Notes: generated by a model from the letters alone, not told the origin. A DNA stretch of 64,000 nucleotides from Candidatus Macondimonas diazotrophica (GCF_004684205.1 NZ_SRIO01000001.1:124001-188000), one strand, 5' to 3'. Counted from the stretch's first letter, positions 38,769-46,710 are shown. Numbers and translations: made by a program.

Positions 38769-39089
38769 AAGGCGCTCCTCCCCATCATCGAACACCTGAA
38801 CATATCATGGTGCAGCGCCTTGCGGGTGAGACCCACAGCTGACGATTGGGGGCATGGCCACATCCGATTTTTCGTGAAACAATTCCCAGCGGTCATCGAG
38901 ACACCACGAACCGGAACAGGGTTCGACCGGTGCATTTGCGATGATCGAACCAGTTGGCTGCATATTTCCGGGACCAAGTGCCCGTTACCCGCGCCATGCA
39001 GCCCGGAGATGAAAATTAGAATGACTCCGCATAATGGCAAACGACATGTTCCCAGCGGGTTTTCCTGTTTACTAACATGTGAGGTGCCC
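38769..39089. other. 321-bp divergent intergenic region
   Basis: It lies between the DUF2939 gene (minus) and the barrel gene (plus). Frames through it are open but show no protein features. It should hold both promoters; I see no clear hexamer pair. Local GC falls near 39000-39080 (AAAATTAGAATGACTCCGCA region), which may be promoter DNA for the barrel gene. Confidence 0.45.
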
Positions 39090-39671
39090 ATGAAGCGTAA
39101 GTTGAGCCTACTCACCCTATTGAGCTTCGGTAGTCTGCTCCCCCTGACTGCCCAGGCCGATGACATGTACCTGCGCCCCTATATTGGGATCAGCTACGTG
39201 TACGCCACCGCTCAGGACCTGGAGATCGGCGATCAGGAAATCGAGCTGCCCGAGGACGTCACCGACTTCGATGACGATGTCTCGACCGGCAAAGGATTCA
39301 TCGGCGTCGAACTGCTGCCTTGGCTGGGACTCGAAGGTCAATACATCGAGCTTGGCGAAACCGAAGAAGCCGGCTTCGAACTGTCCGGTGACGTGTATAC
39401 CGCCGCGGTGGTGCTGGCCCTGCCACTGGCGAACGACTTTTTCACCATCTTCGCGAAGGGCGGCATGGCCTGGTGGGATGTGGAACTCGACGGCCCCGGC
39501 CCGCTCGACAAGGGCTGGGACGGCGATAACGTCTTCTACGGCGCCGGTGTGAAGTTCAAGATCCTGCCCCATCTTTATGTGCGGGCGGAATACGAACGTA
39601 TCCCGGTCGACAAGGACAACTTCGAAGTCAACTTCGACTTGGCATCCGCCGGGTTGCAGTTCACCTTCTGA
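39090..39671 (+). CDS. Small outer-membrane beta-barrel protein
   Basis: 193 residues. Signal peptide with KRK and a leucine-rich core, cleaved at AQA-DD near residue 23. The mature part alternates polar and aromatic residues in short strands (LRPYIGISYVYA, GFIGVELLPWLGLEGQYIEL, YVRAEYERI) and ends in LQFTF, with the terminal phenylalanine that BamA recognises. This fits an eight-stranded OmpA/OmpW-like or OprF N-terminal barrel. The ligand is unknown. A large hairpin follows the stop. Confidence 0.85.
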   Translation: MKRKLSLLTLLSFGSLLPLTAQADDMYLRPYIGISYVYATAQDLEIGDQEIELPEDVTDFDDDVSTGKGFIGVELLPWLGLEGQYIELGETEEAGFELSGDVYTAAVVLALPLANDFFTIFAKGGMAWWDVELDGPGPLDKGWDGDNVFYGAGVKFKILPHLYVRAEYERIPVDKDNFEVNFDLASAGLQFTF

Positions 39672-39677
39672 CGCTTC

Positions 39678-39714
39678 GGTCCTTTGGTCCGGGCAAGCCC
39701 CGGACCAAAGGACC
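39678..39714 (+). terminator. Very long perfect hairpin after the barrel gene
   Basis: GGTCCTTTGGTCCGGG (39678-39693) is the exact reverse complement of 39699-39714, a 16-bp perfect stem with a five-base loop, seven bases past the stop codon. It is followed by CTTTCCCCC, not a true T tract. It is either a terminator or a 3'-end protecting structure. Confidence 0.6.
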
Positions 39715-39934
39715 CTTTCCCCCGCCGAACCCTCTCCCGATCGGACTGCGCCCCTTCCGGACGCATCCGCACCGAAGCACATCGCGACGCGCCGGCCTTT
39801 CTGCATTTCGGCGCATGGCCCAGCATCTGGCCAAGTCAGCGACTGTGAACCCCACATCAGGCCACTACTGAAACCGGGGGCATCGAGCGGTATTGGTCAA
39901 CTAAGCCATCAAGCTTCATCGGCGCTCTTTGAGA

Positions 39935-40004
39935 TTCCAACGCCTGAGCTCAGCCGATCAAAACTGCGAAGCGGTTTGGGGTCGGCTGCAGCGAATTGTT
40001 ATCC
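39935..40004 (-). repeat. attC site of the alpha/beta-hydrolase cassette
   Basis: Read on minus: R'' GGATAAC, then AATTCGCTGCAGCCGA (L''), a central AAACCGCTTCGCAGTTT hairpin, TCGGCTGAGCTCAGGC (L') and R' GTTGGAA. CAGCCGA and TCGGCTG pair perfectly. This is the form of common 59-base elements of the aadB type. R'' GGATAAC is the exact complement of GTTATCC at 40768-40774, the core at the other end of the same cassette. The total length is 70 bp. Confidence 0.8.
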
Positions 40005-40043
40005 GTCTTGCTTGCATTCCCTCCCCTGAAGCGCACAGAGCCA

Positions 40044-40733
40044 TCAACTCGTAACGAATTGGCAAAGTGCACTGGAATGCTCCTGAAGAAATGCCTGTTT
40101 ATTAGCCAGCACCTCAACAGATTGCGGTGGCCGTTGGTCCATGAATGAGAAATGATCCGCTCCGTTAGTAATGCAAACATCCACCGCTTGCCAATCACGC
40201 ATGGTGTCAGCCAGCCATATGGTTTGGGCGGGAGGTGTGATTCGGTCTTCGGAACCTACCCAGGCAAGAACCGGGATACGCACCTCAGCAAGTGCGCCTG
40301 GCGCCTGAAAAAACCCCATTGCCGGCGCGAGCAGCCCCAGGCGGGTCAGCCGTTCATCTGGCGTGATTTCGACAGGCTGACCAGGCCCTAGCCATATTTG
40401 GCCTCCGCCTAGCGCAACCAGCGTGGTCGCACCGATAGAATGTCCCACACCCGCCACGGTTGCGCCGGGTTGGACGAAAGCATCAAGCGCGAGTGACAAG
40501 CGTCTGGCTCGCAGAGTCAACTCAGTTTCGGTTGGGGTTGAAGAGACGAGCCGCTCGAAATATGGCGCCACGACCGTACAGCCTGACTCAGCCAATGTAT
40601 CCAGCAGCGTATGGTGTCGCTCAGGGTTGCCACCCGCTCCTACCGCGAAGATCACTACGATGGACGAACCCGTACTTTCACGAACCGAAACATCAAACGG
40701 CTGTGCGCGATCTGGCAGTGTCCGTGTTTGCAC
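40044..40733 (-). CDS. Alpha/beta hydrolase (dienelactone-hydrolase-like), integron cassette gene
   Basis: 229-residue soluble hydrolase. Nucleophile elbow GVGHSIG with S99. A later acid in WVGSEDRITPP and histidine in NGADHFSF complete a Ser-Asp-His triad in the right order. An early AVGAGGNPERHH supplies the oxyanion region. No signal peptide. Substrate unknown; the fold serves esterases and dienelactone hydrolases. It is the sole gene between the core sites at 40768-40774 and 39998-40004, so it fills one cassette, with its start about 35 bp from the cassette edge. Confidence 0.82.
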   Translation of the reverse strand: MQTRTLPDRAQPFDVSVRESTGSSIVVIFAVGAGGNPERHHTLLDTLAESGCTVVAPYFERLVSSTPTETELTLRARRLSLALDAFVQPGATVAGVGHSIGATTLVALGGGQIWLGPGQPVEITPDERLTRLGLLAPAMGFFQAPGALAEVRIPVLAWVGSEDRITPPAQTIWLADTMRDWQAVDVCITNGADHFSFMDQRPPQSVEVLANKQAFLQEHSSALCQFVTS

Positions 40734-40767
40734 CCAAACCTCTCTCTCGTGTGATTACATCCGATAG

Positions 40768-40861
40768 GGATAACGGCGGGAGTTGAGCGGCACCTGCGCG
40801 TGGGTGGAGCGCACATCGTGCGCGCAACCCAAGCGGGCGAGCGGCTGAAGTCGTGTTACTC
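40768..40861 (-). repeat. attC-like site upstream of the hydrolase cassette
   Basis: On minus: R'' GAGTAAC (40855-40861), ACGACTTCAGCCGC, a long GC-rich middle, GCCGCTCAACTCCCGCC and R' GTTATCC (40768-40774). The AACTC-before-core layout is attC-like. L' and L'' pair with a mismatch. It marks the end of a short unit lying between this site and the one at 40939-41013. Confidence 0.55.
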
Positions 40862-40938
40862 GAACGCCGTGATGGACAGCGCTTTGCGCCGGACAGCACG
40901 CGTTCATCGACTCCGACCGACGGTCGGCGCGAAGCGCT

Positions 40939-41013
40939 GCCCATCGTTCAAATCCACCCGACCACGGAAGGGGCGACGCCCGCTGTAGCGAGTCGGGTGG
41001 AATGCAGTTCTAG
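40939..41013 (-). repeat. Degenerate attC site of the peroxiredoxin cassette
   Basis: On minus: CTAGAAC, then TGCATTCCACCCGAC, a GGGCGTCGCCC-containing middle, GTCGGGTGGATTTGAAC and GATGGGC. TCCACCCGAC (40992-41001 on minus) pairs perfectly with GTCGGGTGGA (40953-40962), a 10-bp stem. The outer cores deviate from RYYYAAC and GTTRRRY by one or two bases. The peroxiredoxin stop codon (TAG) lies inside the first core. Confidence 0.5.
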
Positions 41014-41576
41014 ACATTATTGTTCTGAAGCCAAACGATGACATTGATGGCATTTTCATTTGGTGGAAAAACTGGATAAAACACTCTTCGTATTGAGCCG
41101 TCTTTAATAATGAGGGTAAGCCTTTTGATGAGACGTAACGAGTTGTATGTGAACGTAGGCAATCTCATTACCGTGGTCAAATGAAAACTGCTGTCACTCA
41201 ACAACTCAAAGGGCAAATGGAGGCGTTGAACGGCTTCTTTCTGGTCTTCCGAAGATTGCGCGCTCACGCCATACACCTTAGCCCCTAATTCGAGCAAATC
41301 GGCGTGATGATCACGAAATGAACAAGACTGTAGTGTGCATCCCCTTGCGCCAGGGATCTCGTTCCAACCAATCATTGGAGGGGCGTCCGGTCTTCCGGTC
41401 ATAGGGTAGAAGTAGACCACGGATATCCCACTCTCGAGCCCGAGATTAACCTTGATGCCCGAAGTGCTCCCTAGAGCGATGGTTGGCATATCCGCACCTT
41501 CCAAATGGGCGCATGCGTTATCGTCTTCAGGGACCGGCAAATCATCAGGCAGGACGAGCAGATTTCGGGTGATCAT
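41010..41576 (-). CDS. PrxQ/BCP-like peroxiredoxin, integron cassette gene
   Basis: 188 residues with thioredoxin fold. The active site GCTLQSCSFRDH has the peroxidatic cysteine C80 and a second cysteine C85 five residues on, the spacing of atypical two-cysteine PrxQ/BCP enzymes. Preceding VVYFYPMTGRP is the usual strand. FELLSDSSFHLTTVMRLPTF replaces the typical LLSD..G..A..YGV.. segment. It would reduce peroxides at the expense of thioredoxin or glutaredoxin. No signal peptide. Codon use is AT-richer than the flanking chromosome. Its stop sits in an attC-like core. Confidence 0.85.
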   Translation of the reverse strand: MITRNLLVLPDDLPVPEDDNACAHLEGADMPTIALGSTSGIKVNLGLESGISVVYFYPMTGRPDAPPMIGWNEIPGARGCTLQSCSFRDHHADLLELGAKVYGVSAQSSEDQKEAVQRLHLPFELLSDSSFHLTTVMRLPTFTYNSLRLIKRLTLIIKDGSIRRVFYPVFPPNENAINVIVWLQNNNV

Positions 41577-41594
41577 CTCTTTTCCTTATGTTCG

Positions 41595-41693
41595 GCCTAA
41601 TGCCTGAGCTCAGATGCGTTTGAGGCGACGCCCGCTTATGCGGCAGAAAAAGCGGGTGGCAGGTAAAACGTTGCCCGAAGCGATTTGTTGGGC
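41595..41693 (-). repeat. attC site of the MarC-family cassette
   Basis: On minus: R'' GCCCAAC (41687-41693), AAATCGCTTCGGGC, a middle with CCCGCTT/AAGCGGG pairing, CATCTGAGCTCAGGC and R' ATTAGGC (41595-41601; G to A at the first base). The GAGCTCAGGC segment is shared with the site at 39935-40004. It lies 36 bp beyond the MarC stop. Confidence 0.65.
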
Positions 41694-41728
41694 GTCAACA
41701 TCTTGAAGCCAAACTAAAGTAGTTACCT

Positions 41729-42349
41729 TTAACCGACCACCCCTAGCCAACGTTCTGCACCCAGCGCATCCATAACGAGCTCGACCGAAAACGCCGCCAG
41801 AATCATACCCATAATGCGAGTGAGAATAGAGGCGCCTCCTTGACCAAGAACACGCATAATTTGTGTAGACAAAAGCAACAGAATGAGCGTCACGACCATA
41901 ACCGCAATCATCACCGCAGCAGTGGCCGCCTGTGCAGGGATGGTATAGAGGCTGTTATCGGTCAAAAGAATAACCGCCAGAATCGCGCCAGGTGTGGCCG
42001 TAGCTGGAATAGCCAACGGAAAAACAGCCAAATCATGTCCGGGCTCCTGCTCACCACTACTTAAACCCGAACCAAATATCATCTGCAGCCCAAACAGAAA
42101 CAGAATGATTCCTCCTCCTAACTGGAAGGAAATGAGCCTAATACCCATGGCTGTAAGCAGCAATTGACCAACAACGATCGCGCCAATAAGCACGGCAGTT
42201 GCATACGCAACCGCACGAATAGCGGTACACCGCCTTTGGGCGGCGTCCAGACCACTCGTCAAGCCGGTAAATATTGCCAGTGTGCCGATCGGATCTACCG
42301 TGGCCCAAATGATCAGTGCATCTTGAAGTAGTTTATCGATATTGACCAC
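41729..42349 (-). CDS. MarC/UPF0056 family inner-membrane protein, integron cassette gene
   Basis: 206-residue polytopic membrane protein with about six hydrophobic helices. Family features: an early ATVDPIGTLAIFTGLT, RAVAYATAVLIGAIVVGQLLL, FQLGGGIILFLFGLQMIFG, and the second half beginning FPLAIPATATPGAILAVILLTD, the PLAxPxxxGPGA-like repeat of MarC proteins. Despite the name, MarC has no proven role in drug resistance; function is unknown. The ORF is full length, ending at DALGAERWLGVVG, flanked by attC sites on both sides. Confidence 0.9.
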   Translation of the reverse strand: MVNIDKLLQDALIIWATVDPIGTLAIFTGLTSGLDAAQRRCTAIRAVAYATAVLIGAIVVGQLLLTAMGIRLISFQLGGGIILFLFGLQMIFGSGLSSGEQEPGHDLAVFPLAIPATATPGAILAVILLTDNSLYTIPAQAATAAVMIAVMVVTLILLLLSTQIMRVLGQGGASILTRIMGMILAAFSVELVMDALGAERWLGVVG

Positions 42350-42436
42350 GGGCTCTCCGAATCCTAAACCTTAAAATCTGGGGACTAATTTTCGGTATTC
42401 AACGTATTGGGGGCAGAGACAAGGAGCAATCACTCT

Positions 42437-43426
42437 TTACGCCCGACGTTGGAGCTCAGCCGCGCCACTTTCGGGATCCGGCTGTAGCGCTCTGTTGGGT
42501 GCTACATTACGAATACCGAACGGAATATGTACAGATGGTATATTTCCAGCCACGGATGTTAAGTGCCGCATCTGATCGTCGAAAAATATATGCGGCTTCA
42601 TTATCTCTAGAATATGGTGCTTTTCAATTCCTCCAAGAAAGAACACCTCATCTGGTGTCACTCCCCATTCATTGAGCGTTGTAACAACTCGTTCATTCGC
42701 GGGGGCATTTCTAGCTGTTACTATCGCCGTTCTTAAGATACGTTGATACCCCGCTTCTTCCAGCTCTCTTTTCGATTCTATCTTTTGTAGAAATGAAAGC
42801 TTCTTAAATAGGTCACCAAGCGGTCCTGGTTTGTGAGGAATATTTGCCCTGCTTAGTTCGTGACTCTGAAATTCCTCCACATCCTCATTTTGATGATAAA
42901 CGGATTCAGCCTCATCGTCTGCGATAACTCCATCAAAGTCGAATGCCACTCTTAACTCATGATCATCTTCGTCATCATTGACCTCAGAAGGAACAATCGT
43001 ACCTGCCGGAAACCCGGCCTCAATAGCTTGTTTTACATCATCTTCATTTGCTGATAAGAATAGCGAAGCATTAAAAGCTGGTATGTATTTATAGGGTGAT
43101 TTTCCGCTAAGAAATCCAGCCCGACTGATATCCAAACCATAACTCTTAATCGTGTTAAATACTCTCTGGCCTGTATCTGGGTCATTTCTTGAAAGAAGGA
43201 CTACTTCTACAGGCAAGTCCTCAGGGTACGCTTTATTTATATTCAGAAACCTACGAATAAATGGAAACGCCACGCCTCTAGGCAAATAGTTATTTGTGTT
43301 TTTTCTTTGATAGTCACGATATTCTTCTTCACCTTTATCCATAAATACAGCGTGTGATTCACTTAAATCAAAAAGCGCACTAGAAGCAACCGCAATGACT
43401 AGCTTCCTATGGATTGGATATACCAT
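42437..43426 (-). CDS. Cytosolic 5'-nucleotidase (cN-I type), integron cassette gene
   Basis: 329-residue protein of the 5'-nucleotidase family with N-terminal VIAVASSALFDLSES and the HAD-like catalytic RVAFDFDGVIADDEAE (D163/D165). Later segments AIVTARNAPANERVV and FFLGGIEKHHILE, with IFFDDQ, supply the remaining acidic and lysine residues. It probably dephosphorylates nucleoside monophosphates. The last codons (PNRALQPDPESGAAELQRRA) are encoded by the attC site itself, so the C-terminal tail is cassette-derived. Low GC compared with the neighbouring nrdJ genes. It is the first cassette after the integrase remnant. Confidence 0.85.
   Translation of the reverse strand: MVYPIHRKLVIAVASSALFDLSESHAVFMDKGEEEYRDYQRKNTNNYLPRGVAFPFIRRFLNINKAYPEDLPVEVVLLSRNDPDTGQRVFNTIKSYGLDISRAGFLSGKSPYKYIPAFNASLFLSANEDDVKQAIEAGFPAGTIVPSEVNDDEDDHELRVAFDFDGVIADDEAESVYHQNEDVEEFQSHELSRANIPHKPGPLGDLFKKLSFLQKIESKRELEEAGYQRILRTAIVTARNAPANERVVTTLNEWGVTPDEVFFLGGIEKHHILEIMKPHIFFDDQMRHLTSVAGNIPSVHIPFGIRNVAPNRALQPDPESGAAELQRRA
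42441..42500 (-). repeat. attC site of the 5'-nucleotidase cassette
   Basis: 60 bp, the length of a classic 59-base element. On minus: R'' ACCCAAC (42494-42500, exact RYYYAAC), AGAGCGCTACAGCCG, GATCCCGAAAGTGGCG, CGGCTGAGCTC and R' GTCGGGC (42441-42447; one base off GTTRRRY). CAGCCG and CGGCTG form the stem. R' differs by one base from GTTGGGC, the complement of the next cassette's R'' GCCCAAC, as expected for a cassette junction. Confidence 0.72.
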
Positions 43427-43560
43427 TACTCATTCCCTGACTCCCCACTAGAATTAGACGACCCAGACCCGACCAAATCGATTCGTCCAAGTCAACGACA
43501 GCCTTCAAGATCAGTCTGATATTCTTAGTGTACCCATTTGGTCGACCCAAATTTTTCCGA

Positions 43561-43763
43561 ATGGACAGTCTCGCTCTCGCCAACCGCCAAAGCTGCTGGA
43601 CCGGTTGCGCGACGGGCTGCGGGTGCGGCATTACTACTACCGCGCCGAGCGGACGTCCCTCGACCGGGCGCGGCGTTTCATCCTGTTTCACGGCAAGCGT
43701 CACCCGGCAGCATGGGCGCGGTCGAGGTCGGGGCACTCCTGACGCCAGATCAAGAAAAAAACC
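43561..43763 (+). pseudogene. intI: Truncated, frameshifted integron integrase (intI)
   Basis: Three reading frames join into the N-terminal 60 or so residues of an integron tyrosine recombinase. The frame at 43561 opens with ATG (MDSLAL). The frame from 43563 carries PPKLLDRLRDGLRVRHY (from 43584) and then RRFILFHGKRHP. After a further shift near 43710 comes MGAVEVGALLT. IntI proteins typically read PxLLDxxRxxxRxxHYSxRTE...FIxFHGKRHPxEMGxxEVxAFLT. The rest, about 260 residues including the catalytic R, H, R and Y, is missing. The remnant ends at the stop codon of nrdJb (43764). Confidence 0.85.
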
Positions 43764-44468
43764 TCACCCGCACTTCGAGTCGCCGCAGTTGAGACAGGTC
43801 ATGCAGCCGTCCATGAGCACCACAGCCTTGGTATGGCACTTGGCGCAAAGCTGCGCGCCCGCGGGGAAGGCGCCCTTGCCGGTGCTGACTTCGCTGGTGC
43901 GAGCTTCGTACTGGGCGCGCTTTTCCTCGATCAGCTTGAGCTGGCGTTCGTCGAGTTCGGTATCGGGCAGCATGCCGATGAAGCGCAGATGGCGTTCGAT
44001 GACATCGCCGATCTCGGCCACGAGCGAGGGCATGTAGCGGCCGCCCGGCCGCCAGTAGCCGCCGCGCGGATCGAACACGGCTTTCAACTCCTCGGCGAGG
44101 AAGGTGATGTCGCCGCCCTTGCGGAACACGGCGGAGATGATGCGCGTGAGCGCGACGATCCACTGGAAATGTTCCATGTTCTTCGAGTTGATGAAGATCT
44201 CGAAGGGACGGCGGTGTTCGTGTTCGGTGCCTTCGTTGAGCACGATGTCGTTGATGGTGATGTACATCGCGTTGTCGGCGACGGGCGGCTTGATCTTGTA
44301 GGTGGCGCCGACCAACATGTCGGGCCGCTCCAGCCGCTCGTGCATCTGGATGACGTTGTCGCTGCGGGCCGGCTGCGCCGGGGCGGCGGCGGGTGCGGGC
44401 GTGGCGGGCTTGTCATCCTCGCGCAGGACCTGATAGCCGGTGATGGGTTGGGTGATTTTGATGGCCAT
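43764..44468 (-). CDS. nrdJb: NrdJb, C-terminal part of split class II ribonucleotide reductase
   Basis: 234 residues. The central TSCPD-like region (MYITINDIVLNEGTEHEHRRPFEIFIN and VALTRIISAVFRKGGD) matches the C-terminal domain of B12-dependent NrdJ. The extreme C-terminus has CAKCHT and CMTCLNCGDSKCG, the cysteines that shuttle electrons from thioredoxin to the active site. As in Pseudomonas aeruginosa, the enzyme is split into two genes; this one lies 91 bp downstream of nrdJa. Seven T residues follow the stop on this strand, possibly part of its terminator, next to the integron remnant. Confidence 0.93.
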   Translation of the reverse strand: MAIKITQPITGYQVLREDDKPATPAPAAAPAQPARSDNVIQMHERLERPDMLVGATYKIKPPVADNAMYITINDIVLNEGTEHEHRRPFEIFINSKNMEHFQWIVALTRIISAVFRKGGDITFLAEELKAVFDPRGGYWRPGGRYMPSLVAEIGDVIERHLRFIGMLPDTELDERQLKLIEEKRAQYEARTSEVSTGKGAFPAGAQLCAKCHTKAVVLMDGCMTCLNCGDSKCG

Positions 44469-44559
44469 GTGCGGACTCCGGGCGCCACGTTCGGGCGCGC
44501 ATGTCGATTCAATGATTCGGTGACGCTCGCTCCCGACCTCACGGCCGGGCCGGCGCGGC

Positions 44560-46710
44560 TCAGAAGCGGCCGTAATAACCTTCCTTCAGGGCGTCGAACA
44601 GGTTGGCAGCGCTATGCACTTCGCCGTCGTATTCCACCTCCTCGTTGCCGCGCGCTTCCACCACCGTGCCGTCGGACAGGGTGAAAACGTAAGTTGTGTT
44701 GGCCAGATCCTTTTCCTTCACCAGCACGCCCTGGAAGGCGGCGGGGTTGAAGCGGAAGGTGGTGCAGCCCTTCAGGCCCTTTTCGTGAGCGTAGAGGTAG
44801 ATTTCCTTGAAATCGGCGAACGGGTAGTCGGTCGGGACGTTCGCGGTCTTGGAGATCGAGGAATCGACCCACTTCTGCGCCGCGGCCTGGATGTCGACGT
44901 GCTGGCGCGGGGAGATGTCGTCGGCCGTGATGAAGTATTCGGGCAGATGTGCCTCGGCCGCCTCGGCATTGGGGTCCGCCTCGGGATTGACCAGGCTGCG
45001 GTAGGCCAGCAGCTCGTAGGAGAACACATCGATCTTCTCCTTGGTCTTGCGCCCCTCGCGGATCACGTTGCGGAAATAGTGGTGCGCGAAACTGGGCTCG
45101 ATGCCGTTGCTGGCGTTGTTGGCGAGCGAGAGCGAGATGGTGCCGGTGGGCGCGATCGAGCTGTGATGCGTGAAGCGCCCGCCACGCTCGGCCAGGGCAT
45201 CGATGAGCTCGGGCCGCGCCTCACCGATGCGCTGCATGTAGCGGCTGTAGCGCGCCCACAGCACACGACCCGGCAGGCGGTCGCCGGCCTTGAGGCCGTC
45301 TTCGGCCATTTCCGGACGCTTGTGAAGCATCTCGGCGGTGATTTCGAATTCCTCGTCCATGATGGGCGCGGCGCCTTTTTCCTCGGCCAGCGCCAAGGCG
45401 ACCTCCCAGCCCGCCAGCGCCATCTCGCGCGCCACCTGTTCGGTGAAGGCAATGGATTCGGGCGCGCCGTAGCGCAGGCGCAGCAGCGTGAGCGTCGAGC
45501 CCAGTCCCAGAAAACCCATGCCGTGGCGGCGCTTGCGGCGAATCTCATCCTGCTGCTGCGGCAGGGGCAGCCCACTGATCTCGACCACGTTGTCCAGCAT
45601 GCGGGTGAAGACGCGCACCACTTCGCGGTACTCGTCCCAGTCGAAGCGGGCCTGATCGGTGAAGGGATCGCGCACGAACTTGGTCAGGTTGACCGAGCCC
45701 AAGAGGCAGGCGCCGTAGGGCGGCAATGGTTGTTCGCCGCAGGGGTTGGTCGCGCGGATGTGCTCGCAGAACCAGTTGTTGTTGTCCTCGTTGACCCGGT
45801 CGATGAGGATGAAGCCGGGCTCGGCGAAGTCGTAGGTGGAGCTCATGATGAGATCCCACAGCCGCTGCGCCTTGATGTGCTTGTAGATGCGGCAAGCCAC
45901 CAGCCCGGCTGCGTCGGTGATGTAATCGTCGTGCGTGGGCCATTCGCGCCACAGGATGTGCTCGTCGTGATGCACGTCGATGCCATCCACCTCGGCTTCC
46001 TTGCGCTTGATGGGAAAGGCGAGCGGCCAGTCGGCGTCGTTCTTCACGGCCTGGATGAATTCGTCGGTGATGAGCAGCGACAGGTTGAACTGGCGCAGGC
46101 GGCCGTCCTGGCGCTTGGCGCGGATGAAGTCGACCACGTCCGGATGACCCACGTCGAAGGTGCCCATCTGCGCGCCGCGGCGCCCGCCGGCCGAGGACAC
46201 GGTGAAGCACATGGCGTCGTAGATGTCCATGAAGGACAGCGGACCCGAGGTGTGGGCACCGGCGCCCGAGACATAGGCCCCGCGCGGTCGCAGGGTCGAG
46301 AATTCATAGCCGATGCCGCAGCCGGCCTTGAGCGTAAGCCCCGCTTCGTGGACCTTGTCCAGGATGTCGTCCATCGAATCACGGATCGTGCCGGAGACCG
46401 TGCAGTTGATGGTGGAGGTGGCCGGTTTATGTTCGAGCGCGCCGGCGTTGGAGGTGATGCGCCCGGCGGGAATGGCGCCGCGCCGCAGCGCCCACAGAAA
46501 TCGGGCATACCATTCGTCGCGCATGGCGGGCAGTTCGACATCGGCCAGCGCGCGCGCCACGCGCTGGTAGGTGTGATCGACCGTCACATCCAGCACCTTG
46601 CCGGACTTGGTCTTGAGGCGATATTTCTTGTCCCAGATGTCTTCCGAGGCAGGTTGCAGCGGCAGATCGGCGGCGGAATCGAGGCTCAGGTTCATCGGCA
46701 CGGTGCTCAC
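44560..46710 (-). CDS. nrdJa: NrdJa, adenosylcobalamin-dependent ribonucleotide reductase catalytic part
   Basis: 716 residues. Reduces ribonucleotides to deoxyribonucleotides without oxygen dependence, using a cobalamin-generated thiyl radical. Active-site elements: C103 in TINCTVSG (one of the redox pair), the finger loop NPCGEQPL with N322, C324 and E326, and substrate loops GIGYEFSTLRPRG and PTGTISLSLANNASNGIEP. The frame starts at ATG 46710. A sigma70-type promoter and an NrdR-like box lie directly upstream. No class I or III reductase gene is in the window. Together with nrdJb it forms the complete enzyme. Confidence 0.95.
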   Translation of the reverse strand: MSTVPMNLSLDSAADLPLQPASEDIWDKKYRLKTKSGKVLDVTVDHTYQRVARALADVELPAMRDEWYARFLWALRRGAIPAGRITSNAGALEHKPATSTINCTVSGTIRDSMDDILDKVHEAGLTLKAGCGIGYEFSTLRPRGAYVSGAGAHTSGPLSFMDIYDAMCFTVSSAGGRRGAQMGTFDVGHPDVVDFIRAKRQDGRLRQFNLSLLITDEFIQAVKNDADWPLAFPIKRKEAEVDGIDVHHDEHILWREWPTHDDYITDAAGLVACRIYKHIKAQRLWDLIMSSTYDFAEPGFILIDRVNEDNNNWFCEHIRATNPCGEQPLPPYGACLLGSVNLTKFVRDPFTDQARFDWDEYREVVRVFTRMLDNVVEISGLPLPQQQDEIRRKRRHGMGFLGLGSTLTLLRLRYGAPESIAFTEQVAREMALAGWEVALALAEEKGAAPIMDEEFEITAEMLHKRPEMAEDGLKAGDRLPGRVLWARYSRYMQRIGEARPELIDALAERGGRFTHHSSIAPTGTISLSLANNASNGIEPSFAHHYFRNVIREGRKTKEKIDVFSYELLAYRSLVNPEADPNAEAAEAHLPEYFITADDISPRQHVDIQAAAQKWVDSSISKTANVPTDYPFADFKEIYLYAHEKGLKGCTTFRFNPAAFQGVLVKEKDLANTTYVFTLSDGTVVEARGNEEVEYDGEVHSAANLFDALKEGYYGRF

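Follow-up and report, generated by a model that had tools for sequence, protein, structure and literature searches.

A decayed sedentary chromosomal integron beside nrdJ, with an integrase stub and a short array of captured cassettes

INTRODUCTION

The closest described systems are the sedentary integrons of Xanthomonas, in which the integrase seems to be no longer active in the majority of strains, and CALINs are present at other loci in roughly half of the genomes (PMC12444791). The locus described here occupies approximately positions 39935-43744 of a 64-kb stretch of DNA (G000:C1:124001-188000, hereafter the window) from a 2.8-Mb genome. It resembles the sedentary integrons of Xanthomonas in its truncated or absent intI, its short chromosomal attC array and its non-resistance cargo, as well as in the presence of further attC clusters at other loci of the genome (PMC12444791). 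It differs in its position, given that the Xanthomonas integrons are associated with ilvD (PMC12444791), whereas this locus lies beside nrdJ and its TSCPD-domain partner and has no conserved site across the genus. The locus also resembles CALINs, in which two or more attC sites occur and a functional integrase is lacking; unlike in these, an integrase stub is still present, so that an origin from a full integron can be seen and need not be assumed. One of its cassettes, cassette 4, is similar to the gene-less cassettes of Vibrionaceae in having an attC-like site and no gene, and, as far as PMC11014356 describes those, it differs from them in its length of 171 bp, in its 21-bp inverted repeat and in having GAT/ATC in place of GTT/AAC.

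The locus is an ordinary decayed sedentary integron of a kind already known. A dead integron with its captured genes intact is a common fate of integrons, and the understanding of these elements is unchanged by this one. Less ordinary are the attC sites found at several other loci of the same genome and the integrase remnants found at five or more loci of a congener. An intact homologous cassette exists elsewhere, which makes the decay of the attC cores directly readable while the cargo genes stay intact. The locus also illustrates that identifiable non-resistance genes, such as those of a peroxiredoxin and an alpha/beta hydrolase, move as cassettes between distant bacteria.

RESULTS

The block lies within a 315-kb contig of a 94-contig assembly that is estimated to be 96% complete. 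It is flanked on one side by the gene of an outer-membrane beta-barrel protein (39090-39671, plus strand) and on the other by a TSCPD-domain gene (43764-44468, minus strand), which is paired with nrdJ (44560-46710, minus strand). The context is not of the class 1 type, since all three flanking genes are chromosomal, and the Pfam and NCBIfam profile matches revealed no resistance-gene family among the cassette genes. The G+C content is 0.47-0.51 at 41-44 kb versus 0.59-0.69 nearby, in agreement with the lower local GC remarked upon in an earlier note on this DNA.

The attC sites were explored using two models, both built without anything from the window. For training, integrons of other genomes supplied 21 distinct attC sites, most of them adjoining full-length integrase genes. 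Model 1, implemented in Python, evaluates the R'' and R' blocks, the L' arm, and the L'' arm including its extra-helical base, and leaves the length of the loop free. Model 2 is the covariance model R1, obtained from 12 independent attC sites. Applied to positions 39000-44500, model 1 found exactly five attC sites, all on the minus strand. The maximum obtained with 20 shuffles of this 5.5-kb region was 16.4, the remaining approximately 58 kb of the window gave no score of 14 or more, and none of ten control loci without expected or known attC sites (L022, L033, L034, L038, L039, L040, L041, L042, L045 and L050) reached 17. These are the same five sites that the earlier note had placed on this strand. 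Its coordinates were right within a few bases for four of them, including the site of cassette 3, which runs to 41015, but the remaining one ends at 40877 and not at 40861. A search with a covariance model, the kind of check that it had named beforehand, bore it out, with the independent model recovering four of the five sites (E values of 8e-10 to 0.02). The covariance model also matched 43737-43804 (11.5 bits, E=1.5), and this fifth match was taken as chance. At gathering thresholds, Rfam reported tRNA alone in the window and no attC.

The best-preserved site is the attC of cassette 5 (39935-40004, minus strand; score 60.1; covariance model 51.8 bits, E=7.8e-10), with R'' GGATAAC and R' GTTGGAA; it is the sole site of the five with both cores intact. 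In the other four, the cores are damaged on at least one side. The attC of cassette 1 (42441-42500, minus strand; score 34.9; 35.8 bits, E=3.9e-6) and that of cassette 2 (41595-41693, minus strand; score 30.5; 19.4 bits) retain an intact R'' (ACCCAAC and GCCCAAC, respectively) and have R' cores of GTC and ATT, respectively, in place of GTT. For the attC of cassette 3 (40939-41015, minus strand; score 37.5; 27.9 bits), the R'' has decayed to GTCTAGA and the R' core is GAT. The attC of cassette 4 (40768-40877, minus strand; score 17.2; 9.5 bits with filters off) has R'' GTCCATC, in which the ATC end is damaged, and R' GTTATCC. This last site is weak when taken alone, and its recognition comes mainly from the cassette boundaries verified on both sides. 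Overall, each of the five attC-like sites is either real or very probably so. The segment CTGAGCTC, or the near form GAGCTC(A), is common to three of the five, which corresponds to the shared segment that had been pointed out previously.

An N-terminal remnant of intI is located on the plus strand at 43584-43744. It retains 54 of about 315 codons, with about 260 missing, and contains a frameshift near 43710. Positions 43584-43709 translate as PPKLLDRLRDGLRVRHYYYRAERTSLDRARRFILFHGKRHPA, and past the frameshift, positions 43712-43744 translate as MGAVEVGALLT. The remnant displays up to 62% amino acid identity over 53 residues with the best of the full-length IntI sequences fetched from other genomes, and matches Pfam Phage_int_SAM_4 (E=1e-4) and positions 1-40 of TIGR02249. 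A search of the 94 contigs with the TIGR02249 profile recognized no other integron integrase; the remaining matches, of tyrosine recombinases, are far under the family cut-off, and matches of the same kind occur in 14 of 14 control genomes. The locus has no functional intI, as a complete integron would have, and its four to five attC sites within 2.6 kb make it a CALIN or decayed chromosomal integron. The dead integrase described in the earlier note, on the strand opposite to the cassette genes, is therefore what the locus holds. The former attI and promoter region (43427-43583, minus strand) was inspected against the R'' ACCCAAC of the cassette 1 attC. This gave two candidates for where cassette 1 begins, TTTGGGT at 43545-43551 and GTCGGGT at 43469-43475, and the placement of attI is uncertain.

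Cassettes are delimited by convention at G^TT. With this convention, the minus strand divides into five cassettes with four genes. Each gene has at its 3' side an attC of the same orientation, and intI points the other way, which is the layout of integron cassettes. Four cassette genes had been counted before, and this number stands, but the cassettes are five, with one of them gene-less. Cassette 1 carries a 5'-nucleotidase gene (PF06189; 42437-43426, minus strand; Pfam E=1.4e-126, profile positions 1-301 of 302) that codes for 329 amino acids, is apparently intact and overlaps the attC with its 3' end. Cassette 2 (41601-42446, minus strand; 846 bp) contains the gene of a MarC/NAAT-family membrane protein at 41729-42349 (Pfam MarC E=7.7e-40; NCBIfam TIGR00427 over cut-off), and cassette 3 (40945-41600, minus strand; 656 bp) contains that of an AhpC/TSA-Redoxin (PrxQ-like) peroxiredoxin at 41010-41576 (Pfam E=9.4e-12), in which the GCTLQSC motif is retained. 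Cassette 4 (40774-40944, minus strand) holds no gene, and its boundaries are fixed by its neighbors. Cassette 5 (39941-40773, minus strand; 833 bp) carries an alpha/beta hydrolase gene at 40044-40733 (Abhydrolase_6 E=8.6e-6) with a GHSIG motif. The cargo was correctly anticipated as redox, membrane and nucleotide-metabolism genes, to which the hydrolase has to be added. Judging from their sequences, the cassette genes are still open and look functional.

The two arms of the inverted repeat in cassette 4 (40871-40891 and 40925-40945) are 90% complementary, and their outer ends coincide with both core positions of the cassette (GATGGGC and GTCCATC). The possibility that this repeat is a multicopy MITE was rejected, given that it is present as a single copy in the genome.

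When a cassette is in circular form, its first bases pair with the R'' of its own attC. Comparison of the cassette starts with their own R'' gave a pairing of 27.5 versus a mean of 20.0, the best of all 120 possible assignments. The start of cassette 1 was picked for its match, and cassettes 2 to 5 alone therefore provide the fairer test; for these, the assignment to the own R'' is also the best, out of 24. For the attC at 40768-40877, the R'' pairs with the start of cassette 4 itself, GATGGGC. Such pairing would be expected of cassettes that had each existed as a circle.

A cassette homologous to cassette 3 was found in another genome (G163), where the peroxiredoxin is 86-87% identical at the amino acid level. 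The alignment of the two DNAs spans the peroxiredoxin gene together with its attC and ends at the core. The attC is intact in G163 (GCCTAAC...GTT, score 64.7) versus GTCTAGA...GAT in the window, so that the recombination site has decayed relative to an intact homologue. This core damage relative to one homologue is a direct observation, as are the attC sites, the integrase stub, the cassette boundaries and the homologous cassettes. The description of the captured genes as old in the earlier note is supported in part: the damage to the cores points to time elapsed after inactivation, but the peroxiredoxin retains about 86% identity to the intact copy. Homologues of the peroxiredoxin abut an attC of their own in five other genomes (L116, L119, L120, L128 and L132), and two more are located beside an attC (L117 and L133).

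For the hydrolase of cassette 5, a gene with 72% amino acid identity is present in a cassette array of Gallionella, in a cassette that likewise starts with GTTATCC(x)TATCGG and has GGATAAC as its R''. No homologue of this hydrolase was found at the cut-off among 350 genomes of the class. A copy of the 5'-nucleotidase with 64% identity is present in a cassette array of genome G185, and no MarC homologue was seen in a cassette among the homologue loci scanned for attC. Pairwise comparison of the peroxiredoxin with the copy in G163 gave a dN of 0.083, a dS of 0.88 and a dN/dS of about 0.09, and the pairwise dN/dS of the hydrolase is about 0.13; these values indicate that the two proteins have been under purifying selection overall and do not date this selection to after the inactivation.

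In the congener G002, nrdJ and the TSCPD-domain gene are found without an adjoining integron. In the congener G003, the outer-membrane gene is followed by unrelated DNA and the TSCPD-domain gene by other genes, on separate contigs. The absence of the block beside these flanks in both genomes shows that its presence at this position is not a conserved feature of the genus. Both genomes were also searched for a clean empty site, and none was found; the neighbors differ on each flank and only absence is visible. The region had no match in G001. A conserved block of the four genes was not found elsewhere, and two of them sit in unrelated arrays of other bacteria. Conserved order of the four genes in relatives without attC sites, which the earlier note had named as the observation that would tell against an integron, was thus not encountered.

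Further attC sites were detected at other loci of the same genome (L099-L103 and L105), with counts that are lower bounds obtained from the model search and the fetched stretches. There is at least one at C9:2638-2697, at least two at C14:25932-27033, five or more at C22:131-4851, at least four at C33:428-2719, at least two at C36:4124-4531 and at least one at C1:105367-105430. Most of these sites have intact cores. Several are on short contigs or near contig ends, which indicates that a larger array may be unassembled.

DISCUSSION

The block is almost certainly what remains of a sedentary chromosomal integron in which intI was deleted to a stub and the attC cores drifted, leaving an array that is immobile to its own enzyme. 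An integron integrase encoded on the plus strand would have captured circular cassettes at the attI beside its own gene, and the array would have grown on the minus strand with the 5'-nucleotidase, MarC, peroxiredoxin, gene-less and alpha/beta hydrolase cassettes. Later, all of the integrase gene but its first 54 codons would have been deleted, and the cores would have drifted to GTC, ATT and GAT and, in the R'' blocks, to AGA and ATC. With this deletion and the drift of the cores, the array would have lost the capacity to be rearranged by its own integrase. We infer the order of these events, the loss of activity and any selection on the genes after inactivation.

It is also conceivable, albeit unlikely, that the block is a dormant reservoir of cassettes (CALIN) that is not dead and that another integrase of the cell could still mobilize in trans. 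The distal attC at 39935-40004 has canonical geometry and GTT/AAC cores, and the intact-core sites on contigs C9, C14, C22, C33 and C36 indicate that an integrase once acted in this lineage. Given an assembly of 94 contigs and 96% completeness, a full-length intI might be unassembled and act in trans on one or two intact-core sites. However, four of the five attC sites have cores damaged on at least one side, and the only IntI-like match of the genome is the 54-codon stub, which argues for a dead integron.

Far less probable is an assembly chimera, in which an intact integron was misjoined to the nrdJ region and the truncated intI was created by the join. The end of the stub and the stop of the adjoining minus-strand gene are indeed approximately 20 bp apart, and no relative has both flanks joined. 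Nevertheless, the locus is inside a 315-kb contig, the frameshift of the stub is upstream of the truncation, and comparable IntI stubs exist at five loci in G002; a misjoin also leaves the decayed attC cores unexplained. That the block is no integron but an ordinary cluster of genes with palindromes between them has practically no chance of being correct and is refuted, since, although intergenic inverted repeats are common and the 21-bp one here is without explanation, the attC geometry fits an independent model far beyond chance, the IntI N terminus is where it is expected, and the same cassettes are present in other arrays.

The residue of a sedentary integron in the window has counterparts in the genus. 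In G002, at least five loci contain N-terminal fragments of intI (L035 9048-9741, L036 9255-9732, L037 9733-10193, L107 7120-7435 and L109 4454-5033) with mutual identities of 76-85%. The same 1-nucleotide deletion, in a T-run near codon 74, occurs in four of them, in four the homology breaks off at points within about 60 nucleotides of each other, and several are near a near-fixed attC subtype, GACGGGCCGCGGCCTGAGCTCAAACGTT. It might be proposed, with little confidence, that remnants of integrons spread in this genus in the manner of a dispersed repeat, perhaps carried by a mobile element. Should intI-attI units have been copied round the genome after their truncation, the relic in the window could belong to this family as an older member. 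The fragments of G002, a draft assembly with 7% contamination, may reflect either the repeated decay of several integrons or the copying of a dead unit.

A full-length integron integrase gene was observed near the start of a contig in a genome of the same family (G004:C45:556-1494, L038). No attC was found on this contig, and the cassettes of this integrase may be on another one.

The GACGGGCCGCGGCCTGAGCTCAAACGTT subtype is scattered at single places in the genus. In G002 it is present at C62:5575-5602, C1:95327-95354, C12:58534-58561, C18:37705-37732 and on C22 (L107 9680-9740, a copy that came from the attC model), and in the genome of the window at C1:105371-105398. With up to 3 mismatches, it is absent from seven other relatives. 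Several of the intI fragments of G002 are directly beside housekeeping genes, such as trp genes, as judged by eye from translations. Also by eye, a possible REP-associated (RAYT-like) transposase gene was observed in G002 at L036 6737-7606, directly past a distal attC of the relic at that locus.
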